64,000 nucleotides of DNA from Variovorax sp. N23. Lineage in GTDB: Bacteria; Pseudomonadota; Gammaproteobacteria; Burkholderiales; Burkholderiaceae_C. The notes beneath the pieces are model-generated. The model did not search any database. It had not been told where the DNA came from and saw only the letters and a program-made list of their open reading frames with translations. Both the position numbers and the translations under genes were made by a program. The stretch's first letter is position 1. The number at the start of each line of letters is the position of its first letter. Shown piece after piece: positions 1 to 54,821 of this stretch. The stretch spans positions 496,001 through 560,000 of the forward strand of contig NZ_JAOOPY010000001.1 in the NCBI RefSeq assembly GCF_025486315.1, in the 5' to 3' direction.

Positions 1-606
1 ACGCCCGACCTGCCGGCGCTCGCCGCGGCCGCCGAGCGCTTCGTCGCGCGGCACGCCGGCGGGGTGCACGACCTGGTGCAGGCGCTCGACGACTTCATGG
101 CCATGGTGCGCGATGCGCGGCTATTCCTGCCCGCCGACCTGGCGCTGCTCTTCAAGGCGCTCGCGACGGCCGACGGCATGCTGCGGCGGCTCGACCCGGC
201 CATCGACCTGGTCGCGACGGTCGCGCCCCTGGTCCGGCGCGAAATGCTCGCGCGCTATTCCGCCGAGGAGATCGGCCGCCGCGGCAAGGCGGCTGCCGCG
301 CAGCTCTACGACGTGGCCGGCGAGGTGCCGCAGGTATTGCGGCTGGTGCTGCACCACCTCAAGCAGGGCAAGGTGCAGGCGGAGCTGGAGGTGAAGCATC
401 TCGACCGGGTGAGCGGTGCGATGGAGCGTGCGGCGACGCGGCTGGCCATCGCCATCGTGGCGGCGGCCTTCATCCTCGGCCTGGCCCCGCAGCTGCTGGC
501 GCTCGGGCCGACCTGGCGCGGCGTGCCGGTGTTCGGCCTGCTGGGGCTGGTGCTCGCGGTGGGCAGCCTGGTCGTGCTGCTGTGGAGCTTCCGCCGACGG
601 CGCTGA
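1..606 (+). CDS. AarF/UbiB-family atypical kinase, C-terminal part (5' truncated by window)
   Basis: The reading frame is open from base 1, so the true start lies upstream; 201 residues are visible. The C-terminus has a helical segment followed by two hydrophobic stretches (about residues 137-160 and 175-195 of the visible part) and a short Arg-rich tail ending RRRR. This layout is typical of ABC1/UbiB (AarF) atypical kinases linked to ubiquinone synthesis, which are anchored by two C-terminal helices. The kinase core is outside the window, so catalytic residues cannot be checked. Standalone AarF paralogues also exist, so no symbol is given. Confidence 0.7.
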   Translation, partial: TPDLPALAAAAERFVARHAGGVHDLVQALDDFMAMVRDARLFLPADLALLFKALATADGMLRRLDPAIDLVATVAPLVRREMLARYSAEEIGRRGKAAAAQLYDVAGEVPQVLRLVLHHLKQGKVQAELEVKHLDRVSGAMERAATRLAIAIVAAAFILGLAPQLLALGPTWRGVPVFGLLGLVLAVGSLVVLLWSFRRRR

Positions 607-622
607 GGGCATCGGCCGGCGC

Positions 623-664
623 TTGACGCGGATCAAGCGAACGTGAGCGCGTTGCTCCTACGCT
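623..664 (+). promoter_or_regulatory. FNR/Anr-type class II promoter for the PHA-efflux-acetate kinase run
   Basis: Bases 623-636 read TTGACGCGGATCAA, matching the FNR/Anr consensus TTGAT-N4-ATCAA at nine of ten specified positions. A -10-like TACGCT lies at 659-664, exactly 22 bp after the box. This puts the box near -41.5 relative to a start at about 671, the class II FNR geometry. The same box, spacing and -10 arrangement recurs at 14416 and 54780. The rest of the 607-762 gap shows no other feature. Confidence 0.72.
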
Positions 665-762
665 AGGGACGGTTGCGATGTCCGCTCTTCGAGACCGACG
701 GCGCGACCGACCTTCCGTTCACCCCCGTTTCGCGTCGACCGCGGAATCTTGAGGACCTGCGC

Positions 763-2499
763 ATGTCTGAGCCAACTCCACCTTCGCCTGTCACGCATCT
801 GGACACGGTGGCGCACGGCGCCCTGGCACGCCTGACCGGCGCGCTCTCTCCGGCATCGGCCCTGCTGGCCGGGCTGGACTGGGGCGCGCACCTCGCGGTG
901 TCGCCCGGTCGGCAATTGGCGCTGGCACAACTGGCCGGCGAACAGGCGCAGCAGCTCGTCCGCTATCTGCACGAATGCCTGCTGGCGGGCCCGGGCGAGG
1001 CGCGCGCGCTGGTCGAGCCCCCGGCCCGTGACCGCCGGTTCGCCGAGCCCGAATGGCGCCAGTGGCCCTTCAATCTCTGGCATCAGTCCTTCCTCCTGAC
1101 GCAGCAATGGTGGGACGCCGCCACGCACGGCATCGCCGGTGTCGAGAAGCACCACGAGAACGTGGTGGCCTTCTGCGCCCGCCAGTGGCTCGACATGCTC
1201 TCGCCAGGCAACCGCTTCCTCACCAACCCGACGGTGCTGCGCCGCACGATGGCGCAGGGCGGAATGAACCTGGTGCGCGGCATGCAGAACCTGGTCGAGG
1301 ATCTGTCGCGGCTCGCCGCCGGCACCGCGCCCGCCGGCACCGAGGACTTCCTCGTCGGGCGCGACGTGGCGGCCACGCCGGGGAAGGTCGTGCTGAAGAA
1401 CCGGGTGATGGAGCTGATCCAGTACGCGCCGACGACGGCCACCGTGCATGCCGAGCCGGTGCTCATCGTGCCGGCATGGATCATGAAGTACTACGTGCTC
1501 GACCTCTCGCCGTCGAATTCGCTGATCCGCTATCTGGTGGCGCAGGGGCACACGGTCTTCTGCATCTCGTGGAAGAACCCGGGCGTGGAGGAACGCGACC
1601 TGGGCATGGACGACTACCTGCAGTCCGGCTTCCAGGCCGCGCTCGATGCGGTCAATGCCATCGTGCCGCGGCAGCGCGTGCATGCCGTGGGCTACTGCCT
1701 GGGCGGCACGCTGCTGGCCATCGCGGCGGCCGCGATGGCGCGCGACGGCGACGATCGCCTGGCGTCGGCCACGCTGCTGGCGGCGCAGACCGACTTCAGC
1801 GAACCCGGCGAGCTGGGGCTCTTCATCGACGAGAGCCAGGTCAGCCTGCTCGAGGCACAGATGGCCGAGACCGGCTATCTCACGGCGGGCCAGATGGCCG
1901 GCGCCTTCCAGATGCTGCGCTCCTACGACCTGCTGTGGTCGCGCCTGGTCAACGAATACATGCTCGGCGACCGCGCCCCCATGAACGACCTGATGGCCTG
2001 GAACGCCGACGCGACGCGCATGCCCGCGAAGATGCATTCGCAGTACCTGCGCCGCCTGTTCCTGGACGACGATCTGAGCGAGGGGCGCTACCCGGTCGGC
2101 GGTCGGCCGGTGGCGCTCGGCGACATCGCGCTGCCGATCTTCATGGTCGGCACCGAGACGGACCACGTCGCGCCCTGGCGATCGGTGCACAAGCTGCACT
2201 TCCTCACGGCGACGGACATCACCTTCGTGCTGACCAGCGGCGGGCACAACGCCGGCATCGTCAGTCCGCCGGGCCATCCGCACCGCCACTACCGGATGCT
2301 TCGGCGCGAGGCTGGCGGCAGCTACGTCGCACCGGACGAGTGGCTCGCCGCCGCGCCGGACGTCGAAGGCTCCTGGTGGCCGGCGTGGCAGCAATGGCTC
2401 GCGGGGCGATCGGGCCGGCGGGTGAAGCCGCCGCGCATGGGTGCCACGGGCTACCCGCCGCTGGCCGATGCGCCGGGCAGCTACGTCCTGGAGAAATGA
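763..2499 (+). CDS. phaC: Class I-type poly(3-hydroxyalkanoate) synthase (PhaC-like)
   Basis: The 578-residue protein has the PhaC N-terminal domain followed by an alpha/beta-hydrolase fold. The lipase-like box GYCLGG holds the predicted nucleophile Cys312. Asp467 (in GTETDH) and His495 (in GGHNAG) complete a triad whose spacing is close to that of the Cupriavidus necator enzyme (Cys319, Asp480, His508). Such enzymes polymerise (R)-3-hydroxyacyl-CoA on granules in the cytoplasm. The ATG at 763 is preferred to the upstream in-frame GTG at 673 because conservation begins there and 673 falls at the predicted transcript start. It is the first gene behind the FNR-type promoter and lies one base from fabI. 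No phaA or phaB is adjacent, so it may be a secondary, oxygen-regulated PHA synthase paralogue. Confidence 0.85.
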   Translation: MSEPTPPSPVTHLDTVAHGALARLTGALSPASALLAGLDWGAHLAVSPGRQLALAQLAGEQAQQLVRYLHECLLAGPGEARALVEPPARDRRFAEPEWRQWPFNLWHQSFLLTQQWWDAATHGIAGVEKHHENVVAFCARQWLDMLSPGNRFLTNPTVLRRTMAQGGMNLVRGMQNLVEDLSRLAAGTAPAGTEDFLVGRDVAATPGKVVLKNRVMELIQYAPTTATVHAEPVLIVPAWIMKYYVLDLSPSNSLIRYLVAQGHTVFCISWKNPGVEERDLGMDDYLQSGFQAALDAVNAIVPRQRVHAVGYCLGGTLLAIAAAAMARDGDDRLASATLLAAQTDFSEPGELGLFIDESQVSLLEAQMAETGYLTAGQMAGAFQMLRSYDLLWSRLVNEYMLGDRAPMNDLMAWNADATRMPAKMHSQYLRRLFLDDDLSEGRYPVGGRPVALGDIALPIFMVGTETDHVAPWRSVHKLHFLTATDITFVLTSGGHNAGIVSPPGHPHRHYRMLRREAGGSYVAPDEWLAAAPDVEGSWWPAWQQWLAGRSGRRVKPPRMGATGYPPLADAPGSYVLEK

Positions 2500-2500
2500 G

Positions 2501-3265
2501 ATGAACACCACCTTGCAGGGCAAGAAGGGGCTGGTCGTCGGCATCGCCAACGCGCAGAGCATCGCCTGGGGCTGCGCACGCGCGTTCCGCGATGCCGGCG
2601 CCGAGCTGGCGGTGACCTGGTTCAACGACAAGGCGCGCCCGTATGTGGAGCCGCTGGCGCAGCAACTGCAGGCCCCCATCGCGCTGCCGCTGGACGTGGA
2701 GCAGCCCGGCCAGATGGAGGCCGTGTTCGCCGCCATCGAACAGCAGTGGGGGCGGCTCGACTTCGTGCTGCACTCCATCGCGTTCGCCCCCAAGAGCGAC
2801 CTGCACGGCCGCGTGACCGACAGTTCGCGCGAAGGCTTCGGCCGCGCCATGGACATCTCCTGCCATTCCTTCGCGCGCATGGCCCGGCTGGCCGAGCCGC
2901 TGATGAAAGACGGCGGCAGCCTGATGACCATGAGCTACGTCGGCGCCGAAGAGGTGATCCCCGACTACGGCCTGATGGGCCCGGTGAAGGCCGCGCTGGA
3001 GGCCAGCACGCGCTACATGGCGGCCGAACTCGGCCCCAAGGGCATCCGCGTCAACGCCGTTTCGCCCGGCCCGCTGGCCACGCGCGCGGCGTCGGGCATC
3101 CCGAACTTCGATGCGCTGCTCGACGAAGCCGTTCGGCGCGCGCCGCTGCGCCGGCGGGTCGACATCGCCGAGGTCGGCGCGCTGTGCGCCTTCCTGGCGA
3201 GCGACGCGGCCAAAGCCATGACCGGTGGCACACTGTATGTGGACGCCGGCTTCCACGTCCTGTGA
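2501..3265 (+). CDS. fabI: Enoyl-[ACP] reductase (NADH), FabI-type
   Basis: This 254-residue short-chain dehydrogenase relative has the FabI pattern rather than the classical YxxxK: Tyr156 and Lys163 in a Y-x6-K arrangement with the characteristic Met-Gly between them, the same numbering as E. coli FabI. The N-terminus has the FabI-type nucleotide-binding loop GIANAQSIAWG. The family reduces trans-2-enoyl-ACP in the last step of fatty acid elongation. The start is one base after the phaC stop, so the two are probably translated together. Co-transcription with a PHA synthase and a MaoC-phosphotransacetylase suggests an acyl-metabolism role under low oxygen. A separate housekeeping fabI elsewhere in the genome is likely. 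Confidence 0.85.
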   Translation: MNTTLQGKKGLVVGIANAQSIAWGCARAFRDAGAELAVTWFNDKARPYVEPLAQQLQAPIALPLDVEQPGQMEAVFAAIEQQWGRLDFVLHSIAFAPKSDLHGRVTDSSREGFGRAMDISCHSFARMARLAEPLMKDGGSLMTMSYVGAEEVIPDYGLMGPVKAALEASTRYMAAELGPKGIRVNAVSPGPLATRAASGIPNFDALLDEAVRRAPLRRRVDIAEVGALCAFLASDAAKAMTGGTLYVDAGFHVL

Positions 3266-3275
3266 ACCCGACCGC

Positions 3276-4700
3276 ATGCTGAAACCCACCGTTCTCGCCG
3301 CCGCGCTGCTGCTCGCCGGTTGCGCTTCCATGGCGCCCGGCTACCAGGCGCCGGCCTTGCCCGTGCCCGCGGCGTATCCCGCCGATGCCATGGCCGATCC
3401 CGCGGCCACGGCGGGGCGGCGCGCCGCCGCCGTGGACTGGCGCGAGCACTTCGCCGATCCGCGCCTGCAGCAGCTGATCGCGCAGGCGTTGCAGAACAAC
3501 CGCGACCTGCGCCTGGCCGCGCTGCGCGTGCAGGAGGCGCGCGCGGCCTACGGCATCCAGCGCGCCGAGCGCTTTCCCGTCGTCGGTGTCGGTGCCGACG
3601 CCAGCCGCGCCCGCGTCCCCGCGTCGCTCAGCACCACGGGCCGGGCCATGGTCGGCAGCCAGTACCAGGTGGCGCTGGGCGTCAATGCCTGGGAGATCGA
3701 CTTCTGGGGCCGCGTGCAGAGCCTGCAGGACGCCGCCCTGCAAAGCTACCTGGCCAGCGATGCGGCGCGGCGCGCGCTCACGCTCTCGCTGGTGGCCCAG
3801 GTGGCCGACGGCTACCTCCTGCTGCGCGAACTGGACGAGCGCCTGGTGCTGGCCCGCCGCAGCATCGCCACGCGCGCGGAATCGCTGCGCATCTTCACGC
3901 GCCGCTTCGAGGTCGGTTCGACCTCGCGGCTCGATCTAGCCCAGGTGCAGACCCTGTCCACCCAGGCCCGCGCGCTGGGCGCCCAGCTGGAACAGCAGCG
4001 CGCCGCGCAGGCCCATGCGCTGGCGCAGCTGGTCGGCGGCCCGGTCGACCTGACACCGGCGGCCACGCCGCTGGACGACGGTGCCGTGCTCCAGCCGCTG
4101 GACGCCGGCCTGCCTTCCGCATTGCTGGCCGACCGGCCCGACATCCTGGCGGCCGAGCACCGCCTGCGCGCGGCCAACGCCAACATCGGCGCCGCGCGCG
4201 CCGCCTTCTTCCCGCGCATCGCACTGACGACGAACGCAGGCGTGGCCAACGCCCAGCTCGACGCCCTGTTCGAGGGCGCCAGCCGGGCATGGACCTTCGC
4301 GCCCAGCATCTCGCTGCCGATCTTCGACGGCGGCGCTCGCAGGAACTCGCTGGACCTGGCCGAAGTGCGGCGCGACCTGGCCGTGGCCGACTACGAGAAG
4401 ACCGTGCAGGCCGCGTTCCGCGACGTGGCCGATGCGCTGTCGGCGCGCCAGTGGCTGGCCGAGCAGGTGCGCATCGGCACGGAAGGCCTGGCGGCCCAGG
4501 CCGAGCGCGCGCGCCTGGCCACGCTGCGCTACGACCATGGTGCGGCCGCGTTTCTCGAAGTGCTGGACGCGCAGCGCGACCTGCTCGCGGCCGAACAGTC
4601 GCTGGTGACGACGCGCCGTGCGCTGCTGTCGGCCCGCATCGGCCTGTATGCCGCGCTGGGCGGCGGCGCCCAGCACGTCGACGCCGCCGCCGCCCCCTGA
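3276..4700 (+). CDS. RND/ABC efflux outer-membrane lipoprotein (NodT/OprM family)
   Basis: The 474-residue protein starts with a lipoprotein signal peptide ending in the lipobox LLAGC. It then carries the two internally repeated outer-membrane efflux protein domains, with the family motif ANANIGAARAAFFPRIALT near residue 305. Members form trimeric TolC-like channels through the outer membrane. The gene lies 10 bp after fabI and is followed by a HlyD adaptor and ABC components, so it most likely supplies the exit duct of a tripartite ABC exporter rather than an RND pump. No RND inner-membrane gene is present. The substrate is unknown. Confidence 0.88.
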   Translation: MLKPTVLAAALLLAGCASMAPGYQAPALPVPAAYPADAMADPAATAGRRAAAVDWREHFADPRLQQLIAQALQNNRDLRLAALRVQEARAAYGIQRAERFPVVGVGADASRARVPASLSTTGRAMVGSQYQVALGVNAWEIDFWGRVQSLQDAALQSYLASDAARRALTLSLVAQVADGYLLLRELDERLVLARRSIATRAESLRIFTRRFEVGSTSRLDLAQVQTLSTQARALGAQLEQQRAAQAHALAQLVGGPVDLTPAATPLDDGAVLQPLDAGLPSALLADRPDILAAEHRLRAANANIGAARAAFFPRIALTTNAGVANAQLDALFEGASRAWTFAPSISLPIFDGGARRNSLDLAEVRRDLAVADYEKTVQAAFRDVADALSARQWLAEQVRIGTEGLAAQAERARLATLRYDHGAAAFLEVLDAQRDLLAAEQSLVTTRRALLSARIGLYAALGGGAQHVDAAAAP

Positions 4701-4713
4701 ATCCCCATCGGAC

Positions 4714-5793
4714 ATGTCCATGAATCCCGCTCTCAAGAAAAAACTGATCATTGCGGCCGTCGTGCTGGCCCTGGCCGCCGGCGGCTGGTATGTCTGGCAG
4801 AAGACGAAGAACAGCGGCCCCGGCGAGGGCTTCGTCAACGGCAACGGCCGCATCGAGGCCACCGAGATCGACGTCGCGGCCAAGCTCGGCGGCCGGCTGC
4901 AGGCCCTGCTGGTGGACGAAGGCGCCTTCGTCAAGGCCGGCCAGAAGCTGGCCGAGATGCAGGTCGACGTGCTGAACGCGCAGCGCGACGAAGCCCGCGC
5001 CCAGCACGCGCAGACACTGGCTGCCGTGGCCAGCGCCCGCGCCCAGGTCAGCGCGCGCGAGAGCGACCGTGCCGCCGCGCTGGCCGTGGTGGCGCAACGC
5101 GAGAGCGAGCTCGACGCCGCCCGGCGCCGGCTGGTGCGCTCGCAGACGCTGTCGGCCGAAGGCGCGTCATCCCTGCAGGAGCTCGACGACGACCGCGCCC
5201 GCGTGCGCAGCGCCGAGGCCGCGGTCACGGCCGCACGCGCCCAGGCCGCCGCCGGCCAGGCCGCCATCGACGCGGCGCGCGCCCAGGTCGCCGGGATGCA
5301 GTCGACCGTCGGCGCGGCCGAGGCCACCATCGCCCGCATCCAGGCCGACATCACCGACAGCGCATTGACGGCACCGCGCGATGGCCGGGTGCAGTACCGC
5401 GTGGCCCAGCCCGGCGAGGTGCTGGCCGCGGGCGGCAAGGTGCTGAACCTGGTCGACCTGTCGGACGTCTACATGACCTTCTTCTTGCCCGAGACCGTGG
5501 CCGGCCGCGTGGCGCTGGGCAGCGACGTGCGCATCGTGCTCGATGCCGCACCCGGCTTCGTGATTCCGGCCAAGGTGAGCTTCGTCGCCAGCACCGCGCA
5601 GTTCACGCCCAAGACGGTGGAAACCGCGAGCGAGCGGCAGAAGCTGATGTTCCGCGTGAAGGCACGGATCGATCCCCAGCTGCTGAAGAACAACCTGGCA
5701 CAGGTCAAGACTGGCCTGCCCGGCGTAGCCTGGCTCAAGCTCGACGACAAGGCCGAGTGGCCGGCCGAGCTGGTGGTGAAAGTGCCGCGGTGA
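4714..5793 (+). CDS. HlyD-family periplasmic adaptor (membrane fusion protein)
   Basis: This 359-residue protein has one N-terminal transmembrane helix (about residues 10-27) and a lipoyl half-motif around residues 50-85. A long Ala/Arg/Glu-rich coiled-coil hairpin follows (about 88-215), then a second lipoyl/beta-barrel segment containing [10 protein letters not shown]. It resembles the adaptors (YhiI-like) found with RbbA/YhhJ-type ABC exporters. The stop codon overlaps the next gene's GTG by 4 bp, which indicates translational coupling. An alternative start two codons downstream (4720) is equally possible. Confidence 0.85.
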
Positions 5794-8546
5794 GCGATGT
5801 CGTCGCCCGCGTCGAGGGGCTGAGCCAGCACTACGGGAAGACCTGCGCGCTGGACGCCGTCACGCTGGACATCCCCGCCGGCTGCATGGTCGGGCTGATC
5901 GGCCCCGACGGCGTGGGCAAGTCCAGCCTGCTGGCGCTGCTGTCCGGCGCACGCGCCGTGCAGCAGGGCCGGGTGGAGGTGCTGGGCGGCGACATGGCGC
6001 GCAAGGCGCACCGCGACCGCGTATGCCCGCGCATTGCCTACATGCCGCAGGGCCTGGGCAAGAACCTCTACCCCACGCTGTCGGTCGAGGAGAACCTGCA
6101 GTTCTTCGCGCGCCTGTTCGGCCATGCGGCCGCCGAGCGACGCCGCCGCATCGACGACCTGACGCGCAGCACCGGCCTGCAGCCCTTCCTGGCGCGGCCG
6201 GCCGGCAAGCTCTCGGGCGGCATGAAGCAGAAGCTCGGCCTGTGCTGTGCGCTGATCCACGACCCCGACCTGCTGATCCTCGACGAGCCCACCACCGGTG
6301 TCGACCCGCTGGCGCGTGCGCAGTTCTGGGGGCTGATCGCGCGCATCCGCGCAGAGCGGCCGCACATGAGCGTCGTCGTCGCCACGGCGTACATGGACGA
6401 GGCGCAGGGTTTCGACTGGCTGATCGTGATGGACGAAGGCCGGGTGCTCGCCACCGGCACGCCGGCCGCGCTGCTCGAACGCACCGGCAGCGGCTCGCTC
6501 GAGAGCGCATTCATTCAGCTGCTGCCCGAGGACAAGAAGCGGGGCTACGCGCCGGTCGAGATCCCGCCGCTGCCGCAGGACGGGCAGGACGACATCGCGA
6601 TCGAGGCCCAGGACCTCACGATGCGCTTTGGCGACTTCACCGCCGTGGACCATGTGAACTTCCGCATCCGGCGCGGTGAGATCTTCGGCTTCCTGGGCTC
6701 CAACGGCTGCGGCAAGTCGACCACCATGAAGATGCTGACCGGCCTGCTGCCCGCCAGCGAGGGCCGGGCCTGGCTGTTCGGTCAGGAGGTCGACCCGAAG
6801 GATATCGACACGCGCCGCCGCGTCGGCTACATGTCGCAGGCCTTCTCGCTGTACGGCGAACTCACGGTGCGGCAGAACCTGGTGCTGCATGCGCGCCTCT
6901 TCCATGTGCCCGAGGCCGAACTGTCCGAGCGCGTGGACGACATGGTCCGGCGCTTCGACCTGGCCGAGGTGCTGGACAGCCTGCCCGAGAGCCTGCCGCT
7001 GGGCATGCGCCAGCGGCTGTCCCTGGCGGTGGCCATGGTGCACCGGCCCGAACTGCTGATCCTCGACGAGCCGACCTCGGGCGTGGACCCGGTCGCGCGC
7101 GACAACTTCTGGCGGCTGCTGATCGCGCTGTCGCGGCGTGACAGGGTCACCATCTTCATCTCCACGCACTTCATGAACGAAGCCGAGCGCTGCGACCGCA
7201 TGTCGATGATGCATGCGGGCAAGGTGCTCGACAGCGACACGCCGGCCCGGCTCGTGGCCAAGCGCGGTGCGCGCACCCTGGAAGAGGCTTTCATCGGCTA
7301 TCTGGTCGAAGCGGGCGGCGGCGCCGACCCGGCCGCTGCGGATGAAGCCGCGGCCGGCGGCAGGGCCGAAGCCGCCAGCCCCGGCGCATCGCCAGCCGCA
7401 GCGGCCTCGCACGCGCGGCCGCCGGCCTTCTCGCTGCAGCGCCTGATGAGCTACGTGTGGCGCGAGACGCTGGAGCTGCAGCGCGACCCGGTGCGCGCCA
7501 CGCTCGCGCTCGGCGGCTCGCTCCTCCTGATGTTCGTGATCGGCTTCGGCATCAGCCTGGACGTGGAGAACCTGCGCTACGCGGTGCTCGACCGCGACCA
7601 GAGCACCCTTAGCCAGGATTACACGCTGAACCTGTCGGGGTCGCGCTATTTCGTCGAGCAGCCGCCGATCGCCGACGACGCCGACATGGACCGCCGCATG
7701 CGAAGCGGCGAGCTCTCGCTGGCCATCGAGATCCCGCCGGGCTTCGGGCGCGACGCGCTGCGCGGGCGCCATGTGGAGGTCGGTGCGTGGATCGACGGCG
7801 CCATGCCGACGCGCGCGGAAACCGTGCTTGGCTACGTGCAGGGGCTGCACCAGCACTGGCTCGCGGAGCAGGCGCGCGCGCGCGGCATGGCGAGCGCCGC
7901 CTCGGTCGGTGTGCAGACACGCTTTCGCTACAACCCCGACGTGAAGAGCCTGCCGGCCATCGTGCCGGCGGTGATTCCGATGCTGCTGATGATGCTGCCG
8001 GCCATGCTCACCGCGCTGGCGGTGGTGCGCGAGAAGGAGCTGGGCTCCATCGTCAACCTGTACGTCACGCCGGTCACGCGCACCGAATTCCTGCTCGGCA
8101 AGCAGCTGCCGTACGTGGCGCTGGCCATGCTGAACTTCCTGCTGATGACCCTGCTGGCCGTCACCGCCTTCGGCGTGCCGATGAGCGGAAGTTTCCCCAC
8201 GCTGGCATTGGCGGCCTTCATCTTCAGCATTGTCTCCACCGGCATGGGGTTGCTGGCCTCGGCCGTCACGCGCAGCCAGATCGCCGCGATGTTCTTCGCG
8301 ATGATCGGCACGCTGATTCCGGCGACGCAGTTCGCCGGACTGATCCATCCGGTGTCATCGCTCGAAGGCGCCGGGCGCATCATCGGCGAGCTCTATCCGG
8401 CCAGCTACATGTTCACCATCAGCCGCGGGGTGTTCAGCAAGGCGCTCGGCCTGTCGGATCTGCGCGCGAGCTTCTGGCCGTTGCTGGCCTCGGTGCCGGT
8501 GATCCTCGGCGTTGCCGTCCTCCTCCTGAAGAAGCAGGAATCATGA
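5790..8546 (+). CDS. RbbA-type fusion: two ABC ATPase domains plus ABC-2 permease
   Basis: The 918-residue protein starts at a GTG overlapping the preceding stop. The first nucleotide-binding domain has Walker [10 protein letters not shown], signature LSGGMKQK and Walker [14 protein letters not shown]. The second has Walker [10 protein letters not shown] and Walker [14 protein letters not shown], but its signature is the altered LPLGMRQR. After a low-complexity Ala-rich linker (about residues 510-545) comes an ABC-2-type membrane domain with an N-terminal helix, a large periplasmic region and five to six further helices. This is the architecture of E. coli RbbA/YhiH. With the HlyD protein, the outer-membrane factor and the second permease it should form a tripartite exporter in the inner membrane. 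The substrate cannot be deduced. Confidence 0.88.
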
Positions 8547-9670
8547 AGCGTCACCTCGCCAACATCTACCGCCTGGGCGTCAAGGAGCTGTGGAGCCTGC
8601 TGCGCGACCCGGTCATGCTGATCCTGATCGGCTACACCTTCACGATCGCGGTCTACACCTCGGCCGCGGCGATGCCGGAGACGCTGAACAAGGCGGCGAT
8701 CGCCGTGGTGGACGAGGACGCTTCGCCGCTGTCGGCGCGCATCGTGTCGGCCTTCTATCCACCGCTGTTCACGACGCCGCGGCTGATCACGCAGCGCGAG
8801 ATGGACGCCGGCATGGACGCCGGCCGCTACACCTTCGTGCTGGTCATCCCCGCCGGGCTGCAGCGCGACGTGCTGGGCGGGCGCACGGCCGAACTGCAGC
8901 TCAACGTCGACGCGACGCGCATGAGCCAGGCCTTCAGCGGCAGCGGCTATGTGCAGCAGATGGTGCAGGGCGAGCTCAGCGAATTCGTGCAGCGCTACCG
9001 CGGCGGCACCACGCTGCCGGTGGACCTGGCGCTGCGGGCGCGCTTCAACCCGGGGCTGGAGCGGGCCTGGTTCGGCGCGCTGATGGAAATCATCAACAAC
9101 GTGACAATGGTGTCGATCATCCTGGCCGGCGCCGCGATCATCCGCGAACGCGAGCACGGCACCATCGAGCACCTGCTGGTCATGCCGGTGACGCCGGCCG
9201 AGATCATGCTGGCGAAGATCTGGTCGATGGGCGCCGTGGTGCTGGTCGCGGCCGCGCTGTCGCTGCAGTTCGTGGTGCGCGGGCTGCTGCAGGTGCCGGT
9301 CGATGGCTCGGTGCCGCTCTTTCTGGCCGGTGCCGCGCTGTGCCTGTTCGCCACGACCTCGATGGGCATCTACCTTGCGACGCTGGCACGCAGCATGCCG
9401 CAGTTCGGTCTGCTGATGATCCTCACGATGATTCCGCTGGAGATGCTCTCGGGCGGCATGACGCCGCGCGAGAGCATGCCCGAGGCCGTGCAGACCGTGA
9501 TGCTGCTGGCGCCGACCACCCACTTCGTCGAGCTGGGCCAGGCCATCCTGTACCGGGGCGCGGGCATCGAGGTCGTCTGGAAGCCGTTCGTCTGGCTGCT
9601 GGTCATCGGCGTCTCGCTGTTCGCGCTGTCCCTGCGGCGCTTCCGCAGGACCATCGCCCTGATGGCCTGA
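8543..9670 (+). CDS. ABC-2 type permease (YhhJ-like) of the same exporter
   Basis: This 375-residue protein has the ABC-2 topology: one N-terminal helix (about residues 20-42), an extracytoplasmic domain, then five helices in the C-terminal half including the motif [16 protein letters not shown]. It overlaps the RbbA-like gene by 4 bp (ATGA) and probably pairs with that protein's membrane domain as a heterodimer. The order outer-membrane factor, HlyD, RbbA-like, YhhJ-like matches known multidrug or unknown-substrate export cassettes. Confidence 0.87.
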
Positions 9671-9711
9671 ATGAATCCCCATCGTCGGCGCCGTGGCGCC
9701 CAGGAGTCCGC

Positions 9712-11118
9712 ATGAGCCCTCAAGACCTTGCCATCGTCCGCAACCGCACCTTCGACGAGATCGCCGTGGGCGACAGCGCCAGCATCGAGCGCACGCTGAC
9801 GGCCGAGGACATCCAGCTGTTCGCGGTGATGTCCGGTGACGTCAACCCGGCGCACCTCGATGCCGAGTACGCGGCATCGACCCGGTTCCACGGCGTGATC
9901 GCGCATGGCATGTGGGGCGGGGCGCTGATCTCGGCGGTCCTCGGCACGCGTCTGCCGGGGCCCGGTACGGTCTACCTGGCGCAGACGCTGAAGTTTCTGC
10001 GTCCTGTGCGGGTCGGCGACACGTTGACCGTCCGTGTGTGCGTGAGCACGCGCGACGAGGCGAAGAAGCGGCTCACGCTGGCCTGCAGCTGCACCAACCA
10101 GCAGGGCGAGGCCGTGATCGACGGGGAGGCCACGGTGCTCGCGCCGACCGAGCGCATCGAGCGCGCCGCCACCACCCTGCCCGAGGTGCGTTTGCGCACG
10201 GCCGACGGATTGCCGCGGCTGCTGGCGCATGTGCGGCCGCTGGCCGCGATCCGTGTCGCCGTGGTCCACCCCTGCGATGCGCTGAGCCTGGGCGGCGCGC
10301 TCGACGCCCGGGCCGCCGGCCTGATCGTGCCGGTGCTGGTGGGACCGCGCGCCCGGCTGCTGGCCGTGGCGGACGAGGCCGGCCTGGACCTCTCGGGCAT
10401 CGACATCGACGACGTGCCGCACAGCCACGCGGCCGCCGCGCGCGCCGCCGAGATGGCCGGCAAGGGCGAGGTCGAGGCGCTGATGAAAGGCAGCCTGCAC
10501 ACCGACGAACTGATGAGCGCCGTGCTGGCCGCCGGCGCGGGGCTGCGCACCGCGCGGCGGCTGTCGCACTGCTACCTGATGCAGACGCCGGCCTACCCGC
10601 GGCCCTTCATCCTCACCGACGCGGCGATCAACATCGCGCCGACGCTCGCCGAGAAGGCCGACATCGTGCGCAATGCCATCGACCTGGCGCATGCCATCGG
10701 CGTGGCCGCGCCGCGCGTGGCCATCCTGGCGGCGGTGGAAACGGTCAACCCGGCCATGCCCGCCACGCTCGATGCCGCCGCGCTGTGCAAGATGGCCGAC
10801 CGCGGGCAGATCGCCGGCGGCGTGCTCGACGGGCCGCTGGCGTTCGACAACGCGGTGTCGATCGCCGCCGCGCGCGTCAAGGGCATCCGCTCCGACGTGG
10901 CGGGCCAGGCCGACGTGCTGGTGGTGCCCGACCTGGAAAGCGGCAACATGCTGGCCAAGCAGCTCGAGTACATGGGCGATGCGGCGACGGCCGGCATCGT
11001 GATGGGCGCAAAGGTGCCCATCGTGCTGACCAGCCGCGCCGATTCGCGCGAAACGCGCATCGCCTCGTGCGCCATCGCGCTGCTGCTGGCGCATCGCTAC
11101 CGCAGCGTGCGCCCCTGA
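9712..11118 (+). CDS. Bifunctional MaoC-like enoyl-CoA hydratase / phosphate acetyl(butyryl)transferase
   Basis: The 468-residue fusion begins with a MaoC/hot-dog hydratase domain (about residues 8-150, with the hydratase-like segment GDVNPAHLD and the following GVIAHGMWG). It ends with a PTA/PTB phosphotransacylase domain (about 165-465, with conserved MKGSLHTDELMSAVL). The first half would hydrate 2-enoyl-CoA and the second would convert acyl-CoA plus phosphate to acyl phosphate. A CAGGAG Shine-Dalgarno precedes the ATG. Together with the following acetate kinase it gives a route from acyl-CoA to acid plus ATP, consistent with fermentative or microaerobic metabolism. Whether acetyl-, propionyl- or butyryl-CoA is preferred is not visible. 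Confidence 0.88.
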   Translation: MSPQDLAIVRNRTFDEIAVGDSASIERTLTAEDIQLFAVMSGDVNPAHLDAEYAASTRFHGVIAHGMWGGALISAVLGTRLPGPGTVYLAQTLKFLRPVRVGDTLTVRVCVSTRDEAKKRLTLACSCTNQQGEAVIDGEATVLAPTERIERAATTLPEVRLRTADGLPRLLAHVRPLAAIRVAVVHPCDALSLGGALDARAAGLIVPVLVGPRARLLAVADEAGLDLSGIDIDDVPHSHAAAARAAEMAGKGEVEALMKGSLHTDELMSAVLAAGAGLRTARRLSHCYLMQTPAYPRPFILTDAAINIAPTLAEKADIVRNAIDLAHAIGVAAPRVAILAAVETVNPAMPATLDAAALCKMADRGQIAGGVLDGPLAFDNAVSIAAARVKGIRSDVAGQADVLVVPDLESGNMLAKQLEYMGDAATAGIVMGAKVPIVLTSRADSRETRIASCAIALLLAHRYRSVRP

Positions 11119-11144
11119 CGGCGCAACGGCAACGCAGGCAGATC

Positions 11145-12431
11145 ATGAATCAACCCCTTCCACGCCTCCACCCCCTGTCCGGTCCGTCGCACGCGCAGGA
11201 CGGCCAGGCCCGGGCGACCCCGCTGATCCTGGTGCTCAACTGCGGCTCGTCGAGCATCAAGTTCGCGCTGTTCGATGCCGGCGCGTCGCCGCTGCCGCGC
11301 GTGCCGGCCTGGAACGGCAAGGTGCAGGACATCGGCGGCCCGGCGCCGACCTATGGCGAGACCGGCATCGCGCCGGTGCCGGTCGCCCTGGACGCGCAGC
11401 AGCCCTATCACGCGGCACTGGCCCACATCCGCGAGCGCGTGGCGGCCCGGCTGGCCGGCCGCCCGCTTGCGGCGGTGGCGCACCGCGTGGTGCACGGCGG
11501 CCGCAAGTACGCGGCGCCGGTACGCATCGATGCCGCGGTGCTGGCCGACCTGCGGGCCTTCGTTCCCCTCGCGCCACTGCACCAGCCTTTCGCGCTGGAG
11601 GCGATGGCCGCGCTGCTGGCGTCGGAGCCGGCCCTGCCGCAGGTCGCCTGCTTCGACACGGCCTTCCACCACACGCTGCCCCGGGTCGAGCAGATGCTGC
11701 CGCTGCCCTACGCGGCGTGGGAGCGGGGGCTGCGCCGCTACGGCTTCCATGGCCTGTCCTACGAGTACCTGTCGGTGGCCTTGCCCGAGCGGCATGGCGA
11801 GCGCGCGCGCGGCCGCACGATCGCCGCGCACCTGGGCAGCGGCGCGAGCCTGTGCGCCATGCAGGGCCTGCGCAGCGTCGCCACGACGATGGGCTTCTCC
11901 GCGCTCGACGGGGTGATGATGGGCACGCGCACCGGGGCGCTGGACCCGGGCGTCGTGCTCTACCTGATGGAGGTCGAGCAGCTCACGCTGGCACAGGTCG
12001 GGCATCTGCTGTACCACGAGTCGGGCCTGTTGGGCGTGTCGGGCGTCTCGTCGGAGCCGCGCGTGCTGCTGGCCGCCGAAGACCGCGACGACGAGGTCGG
12101 CGAGCGCGTGCGTGCCGCCCTGGCGCTGTACGTTCGCCGCATCGTGCGCGAGATCGGTGCGCTGGTGGCGGTGCTCGGCGGGCTGGACCTGCTGGTCTTC
12201 ACGGCGGGCGTGGGCGAGCACAGCGCGCCGATCCGCGAGCGCGTCTGTGCCGCGCTCGGCTACCTGGGCCTGGTGCTCGACGATCCGGCCAACGCGCGCC
12301 ATGCACCCTGGATCGCTGCCGCGCAAAGCCGTGTGGGCGTGGCGGTGGAGCCGACCAACGAGGAGTGGATCGCCGCGCGCGATGCCGCGGCGCTGCTGTC
12401 CCTCGGCCGCGCGGACGGCGCCTCCGGCTGA
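11145..12431 (+). CDS. ackA: Acetate/propionate kinase
   Basis: The 428-residue protein belongs to the acetokinase family. Near the N-terminus it carries the phosphate-binding motif LNCGSSSIKF, and in the middle the family signature around FHGLSYEYLS and AHLGSGASLCA. It converts acyl phosphate and ADP to carboxylate and ATP, or the reverse. It follows the MaoC-PTA gene by 26 bp and closes the run behind the FNR-type promoter. The extra N-terminal 25 residues before the conserved core are Pro/Ser-rich. A later start is possible but no better ribosome site is seen. Confidence 0.9.
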   Translation: MNQPLPRLHPLSGPSHAQDGQARATPLILVLNCGSSSIKFALFDAGASPLPRVPAWNGKVQDIGGPAPTYGETGIAPVPVALDAQQPYHAALAHIRERVAARLAGRPLAAVAHRVVHGGRKYAAPVRIDAAVLADLRAFVPLAPLHQPFALEAMAALLASEPALPQVACFDTAFHHTLPRVEQMLPLPYAAWERGLRRYGFHGLSYEYLSVALPERHGERARGRTIAAHLGSGASLCAMQGLRSVATTMGFSALDGVMMGTRTGALDPGVVLYLMEVEQLTLAQVGHLLYHESGLLGVSGVSSEPRVLLAAEDRDDEVGERVRAALALYVRRIVREIGALVAVLGGLDLLVFTAGVGEHSAPIRERVCAALGYLGLVLDDPANARHAPWIAAAQSRVGVAVEPTNEEWIAARDAAALLSLGRADGASG

Positions 12432-12462
12432 CGCCGCCGGCGTGCGGCGCCGCTTCGCCGCG

Positions 12463-12882
12463 CTAGGGGCGGCGGCTGGCCTGGGCCTGAAGAATCCGGG
12501 GCAGGCTGGTCTCGATCCAGTCGGCCAGGCCCCGGACCCTTTCCGCGGCCTCCAGGCCGAGCGGCGTGAGGCGGTACTCCACATGGGGCGGCACGACGTC
12601 GAAGGCGATGCGGTCGACCAGGCCGTCGCCCTCGAGCGATTGCAGCGTCTGGGCCAGCATGCGTTCGCTGACGCCGCCGATCGCCCGGCGCAGCGCGCTG
12701 AAGCGGTGCACGCGCGTTTCCAGGACCAGCAGGACCAGCACGCCCCACCGGCTCGTGAGGTGCTGGAGCACCTGCCGCGAGGGGCAGCTCGCCACCAGCA
12801 ACTCGCCGCGACGCATGGCGCCCAGCAGCGCCGACGTGTCCTGGGTGGGGTGCCGCGGAACGGGCAGGGTACTTACCTTCAT
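12463..12882 (-). CDS. HxlR-family transcriptional regulator (YtfH-like)
   Basis: This 139-residue protein has a winged-helix core matching HxlR regulators. The motif CPSRQVLQHLTSRWGVLVLLVL comes early, followed by the recognition region FSALRRAIGGVSERMLAQTLQSLE and the wing region VDRIAFDVVPPHVEYRLTPLG. It is divergent from a QorB-like quinone reductase, the same arrangement as ytfH-qorB in enterobacteria, so it probably represses that gene and itself. Members often sense quinones or electrophiles through an N-terminal cysteine. One Cys sits at the start of the HTH region here. The start codon lies between two copies of a predicted operator. Confidence 0.85.
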   Translation of the reverse strand: MKVSTLPVPRHPTQDTSALLGAMRRGELLVASCPSRQVLQHLTSRWGVLVLLVLETRVHRFSALRRAIGGVSERMLAQTLQSLEGDGLVDRIAFDVVPPHVEYRLTPLGLEAAERVRGLADWIETSLPRILQAQASRRP

Positions 12883-12919
12883 GTGCGTACTTACAAAAAG
12901 TTCGTGTCGATCCTACAGT
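12869..12919 (+). promoter_or_regulatory. HxlR operator pair overlapping the qorB promoter
   Basis: GTACTTAC occurs twice in direct orientation, at 12869-12876 and 12887-12894, exactly 18 bp apart. The second copy overlaps a -35 element TTACAA (12891-12896), followed 17 bp later by the -10 element TACAGT (12914-12919) directed at the qorB-like gene. The first copy overlaps the 5' end of the HxlR gene. Repression of both divergent genes by HxlR binding here is inferred. Confidence 0.6.
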
Positions 12920-12949
12920 GCCTGCTTTCACCACTTCACAGGACATCTC

Positions 12950-13810
12950 ATGAAAGTCGCAGTCACCGGCGCCACCGGCCAACTCGGTCGCCTCGTCATC
13001 GAGGGACTTCGCGCCAAGCTGCCGGCGGCCGACATCGTCGCGCTGGTCCGCACACCCTCGAAGGCCGCCGACCTGGGCGTGGAAGCGCGTGAGGCCGACT
13101 ACAGCCGCCCGGAAACGCTGAGCCGGGCGCTGGCCGGGGTGGAGACGCTGCTGCTCATCTCCTCCAGCGAAGTCGGCCAGCGCGTGGCGCAGCACCGCCA
13201 TGTCATCGATGCGGCCAAGGCGGCGGGCGTCACGCGCGTGGTCTACACCAGCCTGCTCCATGCCGACCGTTCGACCTTGAGCCTGGCGACCGAGCACGTC
13301 GAGACGGAGGCGCTGATGCGCGCCTCGGGCCTGCGCGTCACGCTCCTGCGCAACGGCTGGTACACCGAGAACTACACGGGCTCCGTCGGCTCCGCCGTCG
13401 CCCACGGCGCGTTCATCGGCAGCGCGGGCGACGGCCGCATCGCTTCGGCCGCGCGTGCCGACTACGCCGCCGCCGCGGTGGCGGTGCTGACCACGCCGGG
13501 ACACGAGGGAAAGACGTACGAACTCGCCGGCGACTCGGCCTACACCCTGGCCGAACTCGCCGCGGAAATCACGCGCCAGACGGGCAAGGACATTCCCTAC
13601 AGGAACCTGCCGCCGGCGGACTTCGCCGCAGCGCTGCGCGGCGCCGGCCTCCCGGCACCGTGGCCGGAGGCGCTGGCGGCGATTGACGTCGAGGTGTCGA
13701 AGGGCGCGCTGTTCGACGACGGTCGTGCCCTGTCGTCGCTCATCGGACGCCCGACGACACCGCTGGCGGCGTCGGTCGCCGCGGCGCTGCCCGGGCGTTC
13801 ATCGCCGTGA
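12950..13810 (+). CDS. qorB: NAD(P)H:quinone oxidoreductase, QorB-like atypical SDR
   Basis: The 286-residue protein has the same length as E. coli QorB and belongs to the NmrA-like/atypical SDR group. It has an N-terminal GATGQLG dinucleotide-binding loop and the substrate-side stretch LLRNGWYTENY. The enzyme reduces quinones with NADPH and protects against electrophile stress. It is divergent from the HxlR regulator and its 3' end overlaps the convergent DedA gene by 12 bp. Expression is probably derepressed by quinones through the adjacent regulator. Confidence 0.82.
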   Translation: MKVAVTGATGQLGRLVIEGLRAKLPAADIVALVRTPSKAADLGVEAREADYSRPETLSRALAGVETLLLISSSEVGQRVAQHRHVIDAAKAAGVTRVVYTSLLHADRSTLSLATEHVETEALMRASGLRVTLLRNGWYTENYTGSVGSAVAHGAFIGSAGDGRIASAARADYAAAAVAVLTTPGHEGKTYELAGDSAYTLAELAAEITRQTGKDIPYRNLPPADFAAALRGAGLPAPWPEALAAIDVEVSKGALFDDGRALSSLIGRPTTPLAASVAAALPGRSSP

Positions 13811-14415: not shown

Positions 14416-14457
14416 TTGATCGCCATCAAGCGCGCGCCGAGATGCCGCGCCTAGAGT
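14416..14457 (+). promoter_or_regulatory. FNR/Anr-type class II promoter of the UspA gene
   Basis: TTGATCGCCATCAA at 14416-14429 is a perfect match to TTGAT-N4-ATCAA. A -10-like TAGAGT lies at 14452-14457, again 22 bp after the box, giving a predicted start near 14464 and a leader of about 50 bases before the UspA start codon. Geometry is identical to the boxes at 623 and 54780. Confidence 0.8.
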
Positions 14458-14516: not shown

Positions 14517-14969
14517 ATGTACCGAAAGATCCTGGTCCCCATCGATGGCAGCACGACCTCGCAACGCGCGCTGACCGAGGCCGCGCAGCTGGCGCAGCTT
14601 TGCGGTGCGTCGCTCGTGCTGCTGCACATCGTCGACGACGCTGCGCACGTCAACGGCTTCGAGCGCCCGGGGGTCTACGTTCAGGAGATCCGCCCGCGCT
14701 TCCTCGCGGCCGGCCAGGCGCTGCTCGACACCGCGAAGGCCGGGCTGGCCGCCACGCCCGTCGCGGTCGAGACCGTGCTGGTGGAGTGCTGCGGCGACCG
14801 GGTGTCCGAACGCATCGTGGAGCACGCCGTGAAGTCCGGCGCCGACCTGATCGTGCTCGGCACGCACGGTCGGCGCGGGGTCGACCGCCTGCTCATCGGC
14901 AGCGATGCCGAACAGGTCGCGCGCCTGGCGTCGGTGCCTGTGCTGCTGGTGCGCGCGCCGCGCGACTGA
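14517..14969 (+). CDS. Universal stress protein, UspA family
   Basis: The single-domain 150-residue UspA protein begins MYRKILVPIDGS. It keeps the ATP-binding pattern G-x2-G-x9-G-S near residues 118-132 (in LGTHGRRG and IGSDAEQV). Universal stress proteins bind ATP and support survival during growth arrest and hypoxia. The start was chosen because it aligns with the conserved N-terminus; the longer reading frame upstream runs through the promoter. A perfect FNR/Anr-type box precedes it, as is common for usp genes in the Pseudomonas Anr regulon. Confidence 0.9.
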   Translation: MYRKILVPIDGSTTSQRALTEAAQLAQLCGASLVLLHIVDDAAHVNGFERPGVYVQEIRPRFLAAGQALLDTAKAGLAATPVAVETVLVECCGDRVSERIVEHAVKSGADLIVLGTHGRRGVDRLLIGSDAEQVARLASVPVLLVRAPRD

Positions 14970-17273: not shown

Positions 17274-18647
17274 TCAATGCGCGTGGCCGGACGGCTTGCG
17301 CACGCTGGCGTCGGGGGCACCCGTGGCGGGCGGCGTGGCAGGCGACGTCGCGGGCGGCGCGCTGTCGCCGGGCACCTCGTGCGCCACCGTGCCGGCCGGG
17401 TGCCTGAACCAGCCGGGGTCGCGGTAGTCGCCCGGCCGCTGGTCGCGCCGCACCTTGAGCAGCGTGAACATGCCGCCCATCTCGGCGGGGCCGAACGGAC
17501 CCTGGCCGGCCATCATCGGCAGCGTGTTGTCGGGCAGCGGCATCTCCATCGCGCCCATGTCGGCCATGCCCTTGTCGCCCATCACCATGTAGTCGGGCAC
17601 CAGCTTCTGGATCTTCTCGGCAATGCCGCGGTGGTCGACGCCGATCATGGTCGGCACCGCGTGCCCCATCGGCCCCATCGTGTGGTGGCTCTTGTGGCAG
17701 TGCAGCGCCCAGTCGCCTTCCTCGCCGGCGATGAACTCGACCTGGCGCATCTGGCCGACCGCGACATCGGTCGTCACCTCGGGCCAGCGCGCCGTCTTCG
17801 GCACCGGGCCGCCGTCGGTGCCGGTCACCTCGAACTCGTGGCCGTGCAGGTGGACCGGGTGGTTCGTCATCGTGAGGTTGCCCACGCGGATGCGCACCCG
17901 GTCGCCACGGCGCACGTTGAGCGAATCGATGCCCGGGAACACGCGGCTGTTGAAGGCCCAGGTGTTGAAGTCGGTCATGGTGTTGACCTTGGGTGTCGCG
18001 CTGCCGGGCTCGACGTCGAAGCTGCCGAGCAGGAAGCAGAAGTCGCGCTGCACCTCGGCGATCAGCGGATGCCGCGCCTTCGGATGCGTCACCCAGAAAC
18101 CCATCATGCCCATCGCCATCTGCGTCATCTCGTCCGCATGCGGGTGGTACATGAAGGTGCCCGGCCGGCGCGCGACGAACTCGTAGACGAAGGTCTTGCC
18201 CGGCGGGATGTGCGGCTGCGTGATGCCGCCGACGCCGTCCATGCCGTTGGGCAGGCGCTGGCCGTGCCAGTGCACGGTGGTGTGCTCGGGCAGCCGGTTG
18301 GTCACGAAAATGCGCACGCGGTCGCCTTCGACCACCTCGATCGTCGGGCCCGGCGACTGGCCGTTGTAGCCCCACATGTTGACCTTGAAGCCGGGCGCCA
18401 TCTCGCGCACGACCGTCTCGGCGACCAGGTGGAATTCCTTGACGTTGCCGTTCATGCGCCAGGGCAGCGTCCAGCCGTTGAGCGTGACGACCGGGTTGTA
18501 GGGGCGGCCGTCGGGCGGCAGCAGCGGCGCGGCCGTGGCGGTCGATGACTGCGTGTGCGCGTCGGGCAGCGCGGCGAGCGCGACGCGGCTGACGCTGGCG
18601 GCGGCCACGGCCGTGGCCGCGCCGGTGAAGAAGTGGCGGCGGTCCAT
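17274..18647 (-). CDS. Multicopper oxidase, copper-resistance type (CopA/CueO-like)
   Basis: The 457-residue protein starts with a Tat-type signal (DRRHFFTG then an Ala-rich segment ending ALA), as expected for a folded copper enzyme exported to the periplasm. All copper-ligand motifs are present: HWHG near residue 125, HPH near 168, HPVHLHGHEF, and a C-terminal HCHKSHHTMGPM giving His-Cys-His, His at +5 and Met at +10 from the Cys. It probably oxidises Cu(I) to Cu(II). The C-terminus carries a Met-rich stretch and a Pro/Ala/Thr-rich tail ending SGHAH. Its ATG overlaps the stop of the outer-membrane factor gene (TGATG). Confidence 0.9.
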   Translation of the reverse strand: MDRRHFFTGAATAVAAASVSRVALAALPDAHTQSSTATAAPLLPPDGRPYNPVVTLNGWTLPWRMNGNVKEFHLVAETVVREMAPGFKVNMWGYNGQSPGPTIEVVEGDRVRIFVTNRLPEHTTVHWHGQRLPNGMDGVGGITQPHIPPGKTFVYEFVARRPGTFMYHPHADEMTQMAMGMMGFWVTHPKARHPLIAEVQRDFCFLLGSFDVEPGSATPKVNTMTDFNTWAFNSRVFPGIDSLNVRRGDRVRIRVGNLTMTNHPVHLHGHEFEVTGTDGGPVPKTARWPEVTTDVAVGQMRQVEFIAGEEGDWALHCHKSHHTMGPMGHAVPTMIGVDHRGIAEKIQKLVPDYMVMGDKGMADMGAMEMPLPDNTLPMMAGQGPFGPAEMGGMFTLLKVRRDQRPGDYRDPGWFRHPAGTVAHEVPGDSAPPATSPATPPATGAPDASVRKPSGHAH

Positions 18648-20140: not shown

Positions 20141-20218
20141 GATGGATCTCCACGAGCGAGGAAGCGGCCGCTTGCCACCCGGAACGGGCGAACAGCGGAC
20201 GGACTGCGGGCAGGGAGA

Positions 20219-20629: not shown

Positions 20630-20639
20630 GGGGTCGATT

Positions 20640-54779: not shown

Positions 54780-54821
54780 TTGATCCGCGTCAAGCGCCGC
54801 AGCGCCGTGTCTCCCTACAGT
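54780..54821 (+). promoter_or_regulatory. FNR/Anr-type class II promoter of the ODP-type gene
   Basis: TTGATCCGCGTCAA at 54780-54793 matches the FNR/Anr consensus at nine of ten positions. TACAGT lies at 54816-54821, again 22 bp after the box. Predicted start near 54828, giving a leader of about 29 bases. No -10 at the mirrored distance is visible toward the CBS gene. Confidence 0.75.

Follow-up and report, generated by a model that had tools for sequence, protein, structure and literature searches.

A predicted low-oxygen operon of Variovorax sp. N23 combines a PHA synthase and acyl-CoA genes with an RbbA-type exporter behind one FNR-type box

We analysed a 64,000-nucleotide stretch of the genome of Variovorax sp. 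N23 (contig NZ_JAOOPY010000001.1, positions 496,001 to 560,000; hereafter the window), in which eight genes, all on the + strand (763-12431), lie downstream of a single FNR-type box (623-636). They run from a polyhydroxyalkanoate (PHA) synthase gene, phaC, to a kinase gene, ackA, and probably form one low-oxygen operon, read from a single class II FNR promoter, that joins a polyhydroxybutyrate (PHB) electron sink to a separate exporter module. The predicted low-oxygen control of the operon is well supported at the sequence level. Judged by its genes, the operon is a compact, lxa-like unit (after the lxa, or low-oxygen-activated, locus of Burkholderia cenocepacia and B. contaminans), and its metabolic half belongs to operons that are already known. 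The less expected part is the exporter within the operon, together with a recurrent FNR box before members of the same exporter family.

The FNR/Anr-type box TTGACGCGGATCAA (623-636, + strand) is an exact palindrome that is retained 5' of phaC in relatives. Exact palindromes of this form occur 26 times in the 5.29-Mb genome, compared with once for the reversed pattern. A -10-like hexamer, TACGCT (659-664, + strand), lies exactly 22 bp past the box; if it is the -10 element, the centre of the box falls at -41.5, and transcription would start near 671. Class II FNR promoters have a palindrome of the TTGAT-N4-ATCAA type centred at -41.5, and the box at 623-636 shows this geometry relative to the predicted start, which bears out the earlier note on this DNA in its proposal of one FNR/Anr box with class II spacing. 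When 44 promoters were aligned (that of the window, those of 34 exporter loci and those of nine phaC loci without an exporter), TAnnnT was found at the 22-bp offset in 13 and in two at most at every other offset; at the 22-bp hexamer, A occupied the second place in 30/44 and T the last place in 29/44. The box stands above chance because it is retained in relatives although the spacer and flanks vary, and a chance match was ruled out by this retention together with the 22-bp hexamer peak and the comparison with permuted palindromes given below. Inside the operon there was no second exact FNR box. A consensus scan of 500-13100 found no sigma-70-type site on the + strand and one on the - strand, and terminator-like matches in the same interval were at chance level (three seen, 3.0 expected). 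In addition, the genome encodes an FNR-type protein with a Cys-x2-Cys-x5-Cys motif and further Cys residues (candidate ligands), and a box lies about 95 bp before the presumed start of its gene.

The eight genes follow one another at distances of 1, 10, 13, -4, -4, 41 and 26 bp, and their assignments below agree with both Pfam and NCBIfam. A co-directional run from a PhaC-like gene to ackA with gaps of 42 bp or less, as described in the earlier note, is therefore borne out, with a largest gap of 41 bp; 4-bp overlaps are present, and 'several' was a slight overstatement because there are only two. The first gene, phaC (763-2499; Pfam, NCBIfam), encodes a PhaC-like PHA synthase that scores 559 bits against the class I model TIGR01838, below its cut-off of 622.65, and is thus class I-like but divergent. 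It retains in alignment the Cys, Asp and His positions of solved synthases, which we take to be the catalytic residues. The FabI-type enoyl reductase encoded by fabI (2501-3265; Pfam; NF005717, 456 bits, cut-off 337) retains Tyr-x6-Lys, presumably its functional residues. The operon copies of both proteins look extra, because the genome has one more PhaC_N match and one more FabI match (43% identity) at other places. Four exporter genes follow: a NodT-type outer-membrane efflux factor (3276-4700; Pfam; TIGR01845, 395 bits, cut-off 210), an HlyD/YhiI-type periplasmic adaptor (4714-5793), an RbbA-type ABC protein with a GTG start (5790-8546; NF033858, 1587 bits, cut-off 1050) and a YhhJ-type ABC-2 permease (8543-9670). 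The adaptor and the permease were assigned with Pfam and NCBIfam and align to YhiI and YhhJ, respectively, of a Pseudomonas veronii plasmid. The RbbA-type protein, with two fused nucleotide-binding domains and an ABC-2 membrane domain, passes the RbbA equivalog model, and the adaptor and the permease adjoin it; the exporter is therefore classified as RbbA-YhiI-YhhJ type with a NodT-type outer-membrane factor. The ABC exporter that had been proposed is confirmed, in four genes rather than as a strictly tripartite system. The run ends with maoC-pta (9712-11118; NF006045, 760 bits, cut-off 282), whose fusion of MaoC and PTA/PTB domains exceeds the cut-off of the bifunctional enoyl-CoA hydratase/phosphate acyltransferase family, and with ackA (11145-12431; TIGR00016, 319 bits, cut-off 293), which encodes an acetate/propionate-family kinase. 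Neither Rfam, at its gathering thresholds, nor a tRNA search gave a hit in the window.

The metabolic parts fit a pathway that would lead from 3-hydroxybutyryl-CoA to butyrate plus one ATP, with crotonyl-CoA and butyryl-CoA as intermediates. The acyl-transferase domain scored 301 bits against the phosphate butyryltransferase model TIGR02706 versus 67 against the pta model TIGR00651; its closest solved relative was the phosphate butyryltransferase 7vg9 (240 bits), and solved chains named phosphate acetyltransferase or phosphotransacetylase reached 53 bits at most. Among solved relatives, the MaoC domain was closest to (R)-specific enoyl-CoA hydratase. The domains of the acid- and ATP-forming MaoC-PTA and ackA module proposed in the earlier note are confirmed, and its acyl transferase can be placed nearer to butyryl-type enzymes. 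We propose that, as oxygen falls, the class II FNR promoter would turn on all eight genes. The MaoC domain would then interconvert (R)-3-hydroxybutyryl-CoA and crotonyl-CoA, the FabI-type enzyme would reduce the enoyl group with NADH, the butyryl-type phosphate acyltransferase domain would form the acyl-phosphate, and the kinase would convert this to a short acid and ATP; PhaC would be an alternative sink of hydroxyacyl-CoA. The PHB pool could in this way serve as an electron sink and allow ATP formation at the substrate level once respiration stops, and the RbbA-YhiI-YhhJ exporter with its NodT-type factor would be a second low-oxygen module joined to the metabolic genes. A plausible PHB-to-butyrate route with ATP gain thus sits behind the same predicted low-oxygen switch, so that what aerobes do with their storage polymer without oxygen becomes a testable question.

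We searched 299 family genomes for MaoC-PTA and compared 40 loci, each spanning 15-20 kb about a full-length match from the top of the list; more matches exist than were listed, and the 40 are not a random sample. The order phaC-fabI-OMF-HlyD-RbbA-YhhJ-MaoC-PTA-ackA (OMF, outer-membrane factor) was found in 9/40 loci, one of which (L051) has a fabI fragment only, and four further loci have this order without fabI. The exporter consequently lies between phaC and pta in 13 of the 40, eight of them with all eight genes, and all 13 carry the box, which is exact in ten and has one mismatch in three (L052, L061 and L062), each of these with TAnnnT at 22 bp. The conservation of gene order that the earlier note had asked about therefore holds in these 13; in the other 27 the exporter is not at this place, and in four of the 27 (L065, L068, L069 and L070) it lies nearby in a different order. 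Thirteen loci begin with phaC and have no intervening exporter; ten of them have an exact box 5' of phaC, which in one of the ten lies 451 bp away. A short yhhJ match is all that remains between fabI and pta in L053, which suggests loss of the exporter there. Across the genus, RbbA was found in 9/100 genomes, the source genome included. The nearest of them (94% identity; sister genome G1045, locus L290) has the same operon with its box, and a heavy-metal P-type ATPase gene (L290 4832-7003; a 724-aa open frame with an HMBD domain) lies there between maoC-pta and the body of ackA.

Among the named genomes, Curvibacter gracilis (L211, probably the same genome as L061) has the full operon order, and Acidovorax soli (L214) has the order without fabI, boxed. 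Two gammaproteobacterial loci are boxed as well: in Pseudoxanthomonas mexicana (L212), phaC-fabI-OMF-HlyD-RbbA-YhhJ is followed by further genes and then by pta and ackA, and Luteimonas (L199) has fabI-exporter-pta-ackA. Most operon genes occur together, in differing orders, on plasmids of Novosphingobium, Sphingobium, Rhizorhabdus and Pseudomonas veronii, and no exact box was found 5' of the exporter unit on these plasmids. A DUF3141 protein (822 aa in the P. veronii locus L132) precedes pta in L065, L068, L069, L070, L094, L203, L212 and L267; no phaC match was present in the fetched stretches of L065 and L068.

The exporter was also followed through the distribution of RbbA. It was present in 58 of the 299 family genomes and, by match coordinates, within about 20 kb of a pta match in at least 22 of these 58; linkage to phaC or ackA only adds three, giving at least 25/58. 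RbbA was found in 39/398 genomes phylum-wide, and an order-wide search gave a match in 40/300 genomes. Linkage, defined as a phaC, pta or ackA match of at least 35% identity in the fetched stretch (some stretches being short), was seen in 3/40 phylum-wide and 12/80 named-genome loci that had been drawn by RbbA. An exporter inserted once only was ruled out, as it recurs with phaC/pta/ackA genes in several classes. Box statistics started from 185 loci whose RbbA match had at least 50% identity; of these, 12 with less than 500 bp upstream were dropped (seven of them named), and the 173 kept gave 143 after dereplication, 11 of which had been fetched through pta, eight of these being boxed. We counted exact matches in the 450 bp upstream plus 60 bp of the inferred unit start, a test that misses unknown first genes and weaker or more distant boxes. 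An exact box was found 5' of the exporter unit at 34/143 loci, compared with at most 1/143 for each of 23 permuted palindromes. The frequency was 26/132 when the pta-fetched loci were excluded and 20/111 among loci without a phaC/pta/ackA match in the fetched stretch; in the samples drawn by RbbA only, 8/40 phylum-wide loci and 17 of the 73 named loci with upstream sequence were boxed. Boxed, unlinked named examples came from Pseudomonas chengduensis, P. composti, Agrobacterium pusense, Halopseudomonas aestusnigri and Achromobacter marplatensis, and the exporter copies of Acinetobacter, Klebsiella, Kluyvera, Proteus and Gilliamella in the named sample had no box upstream. On an RbbA tree of 144 rows, box state changed 25 times and linkage 21 times. 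Because 34/143 loci are boxed, 20 of the 111 unlinked ones among them, we take the exporter to be most plausibly a module that recurs in low-oxygen regulons and not a chance passenger; on the question in the earlier note of whether it is a stable part, it does recur, with FNR boxes of its own elsewhere. We know of no established cargo for RbbA-family pumps, and at the level of titles and abstract openings, among the papers listed, we found no literature tying the RbbA/YhiI/YhhJ exporter to low oxygen. An FNR-type class II promoter before about one-quarter of the RbbA loci examined points to low oxygen as the condition under which to look for the cargo.

Some individual exporter loci deserve mention. 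The samples overlap slightly: in each of six named loci, 200 bp of rbbA are shared with a locus sampled earlier. L226, titled a Lysobacter metagenome-assembled genome (MAG), is one of the six; its 200-bp rbbA stretch is identical to that of L069 from the window's family, reflecting either a mislabelled bin or a recent transfer, and it was not counted as a separate lineage. L169, L178 and L188 have seven, seven and four exact FNR boxes, respectively, in the 20 kb around the exporter and are apparently low-oxygen islands. L265, a Lentisphaeria bacterium MAG and so by its title non-proteobacterial, has an exact FNR-type box about 50 bp before its HlyD match. A divergent TetR-like gene (one checked with Pfam) adjoins the exporter unit in nine loci (L091, L092, L094, L100, L152, L191, L199, L203 and L206), seven of them boxed. 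By eye, GGTCGTTA-like palindromes lie beside several of the boxes at these loci, which suggests a second regulatory input. A TetR regulator as a fixed part of the system was rejected: it adjoins nine loci only, and in the window phaC follows the upstream reading frame with no gene intervening, and an HxlR gene lies downstream. A homologue search with the Sphingobium TetR gave three loci, the query included, and clustering of open reading frames in the exporter neighbourhoods gave nothing beyond TetR and the known genes.

Parts of this arrangement have published counterparts, for which we draw on passages of the papers cited. The phbC-fabI operon of Rhodobacter sphaeroides (RSP1257-4) is given an FnrL site marked '+', which we read as activation; an HlyD gene and ABC transporter genes are there also predicted to belong to a FixK regulon (PMC2908626). 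The dksA-phaC2-fabI-Hsero_2407 operon of Herbaspirillum seropedicae is stated to be under direct Fnr1 regulation (PMC5934665). Both likewise place a PHA synthase and FabI under FNR; an exporter is not named with them in these passages, whereas the Variovorax operon contains one. A FixK2 study of B. diazoefficiens lists phbC2 and an ABC-permease-HlyD operon (PMC9104804). At the lxa locus of B. cenocepacia and B. contaminans, ackA, phbB, a PHA polymerase gene and PTA/PTB are co-expressed, and the cluster also holds universal stress proteins, a metallo-beta-lactamase protein and transporter genes; low-oxygen induction is reported in B. cenocepacia J2315 (PMC4981469, PMC6127331). The OMF-HlyD-ABC-permease genes of B. 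contaminans lxa are co-expressed and lack an orthologue in J2315, in which BCAM0302-0304 are different ABC transporter genes (PMC4981469). As described there, lxa is a cluster of about 50 genes, whereas in Variovorax eight genes, FabI and a MaoC-PTA fusion among them, make up a single compact operon, and the lxa transporters resemble the Variovorax exporter by gene kind. Synteny of phaC-(phaJ-pta)-ackA-fabI is described for groups D1/D2 in Burkholderia sensu lato in a review that explains it as acetate use and cites an ORF-pta-ack-fabI operon (ORF, open reading frame) of S. meliloti induced by phosphate starvation (PMC8231600); the metabolic genes are the same as in Variovorax, and the portion of its text considered here mentions neither an exporter nor oxygen control. 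The yhiI-rbbA-yhhJ genes of E. coli share the exporter family and gene order, but no outer-membrane factor, phaC, pta or ackA is annotated in the 14-kb stretch around them. The interpretation in the earlier note is supported in part, by sequence, for its single promoter, its gene order in a set of relatives and its recurrent exporter, and its low-oxygen part is less new than implied because FNR control of phaC-fabI operons had already been published.

Several observations weigh against the proposed operon and its chemistry. TAnnnT at 22 bp is absent from 31 of the 44 aligned promoters, and other CRP/FNR-family regulators with the same site could use the box. At 109 of the 143 dereplicated exporter loci the tested stretch contains no exact box; in E. 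coli K-12, the 500 bp upstream of yhiI contain no FNR box, the best match having three mismatches. A tie between box and linkage was not supported on the RbbA tree, with median p 0.45 and 0.73 over 15 and 18 independent pairs, respectively. At 301 bits, the acyl-transferase domain does not reach the TIGR02706 butyryltransferase equivalog cut-off of 410.5 and passes the 'phosphate acetyltransferase' subfamily model NF008852 (468 bits, cut-off 413), and AckA is of the acetate/propionate type, with only 35 bits to butyrate kinase. Given this pass and this kinase type, the true intermediate may be acetyl- or propionyl-phosphate. In some relatives FabI was not found or is fragmentary, and enoyl reduction is thus not essential to the cassette. 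Finally, the lxa genes of B. contaminans are expressed in aerobic culture, according to the passages cited (PMC4981469).

Other explanations of the exporter were weighed. It might be a dedicated outlet that carries a product of PhaC, MaoC-PTA and FabI through both membranes, for example a modified acyl lipid or oligomers of hydroxyacyl units. Such an outlet would suit the joint occurrence of exporter and phaC/pta/ackA in alpha-, beta- and gammaproteobacteria in differing orders, the phospholipase A, PagL or ketoacyl-ACP synthase III genes beside some exporter copies, and the second ABC domain of RbbA, whose closest solved relatives are ABCA phospholipid transporters. However, short acids should not need an RbbA-type pump, and most exporters sampled by RbbA are unlinked, with some of the stretches short. 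The box in 20/111 loci without a phaC/pta/ackA match argues against a pathway-only cargo, though it falls short of excluding one, and we consider a dedicated outlet unlikely. It is likewise doubtful that RbbA-YhiI-YhhJ serves widely in hypoxia to export lipids or compounds derived from acyl groups, as a recurrent FNR-regulon member across Pseudomonadota that in several lineages is joined to a PHA-synthase/phosphate-butyryltransferase/kinase cassette whose acyl chains supply its cargo. Most likely, the second module of the proposed operon is an envelope or hydrophobic-compound exporter for the same condition and not the dedicated outlet of the pathway.

The direction of the pathway and the unity of the transcript also need to be considered. 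PTA and AckA are reversible, and the two could activate acetate or propionate for PHA storage, with low-oxygen control incidental and the exporter a hitch-hiker. The acetyltransferase-named model NF008852 is passed, and the acetate use proposed in the review and the phosphate-starvation induction of the S. meliloti operon, as given in its text (PMC8231600), point in the same direction. Nevertheless, the exact boxes at ten of the 13 phaC-first loci without an intervening exporter tie the operon to oxygen, as does FNR control of phaC-fabI in two species in the passages cited above (PMC2908626, PMC5934665), and exporter linkage repeated in several classes speaks against a hitch-hiker; we hold this reversed route to be quite improbable. 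Very unlikely, in our estimate, is a run divided into multiple transcripts by separate internal promoters of the exporter and of maoC-pta/ackA. Start signals could fit into the 41 bp ahead of maoC-pta, gaps of about 0.5 kb occur at the exporter/maoC-pta junction in the relatives L047 and L051, and in the sister genome the P-type ATPase gene separates maoC-pta from the body of ackA, but within the operon itself there is neither a second exact box nor a promoter-like site on the + strand.

Two further boxed units lie in the window and are predicted to be separate members of the regulon of the eight-gene operon. A box at 14416-14429 (+ strand) precedes TAGAGT (14452-14457) and a universal stress protein gene (14517-14969); a box at 54780-54793 precedes TACAGT (54816-54821) and the gene of an ODP-family metallo-beta-lactamase-fold protein, the unit ending at 55666 (+ strand), with a protein start inferred near 54857. 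Both hexamers were placed by eye, and all three window boxes have TAnnnT exactly 22 bp downstream. Four boxes thus fall in about 66 kb (623, 14416, 54780 and one 1.9 kb past the window) where 0.32 would be expected (Poisson P ~0.0003, for a region picked after the boxes were seen). For comparison with lxa, the window holds the operon and the boxed universal stress protein gene at 14517, with the ODP protein 42 kb away. Elsewhere in the window, multicopper oxidase domains, an outer-membrane efflux protein and a P-type ATPase adjoin one another on the - strand (17274-22727) and likely form a copper-handling cluster.

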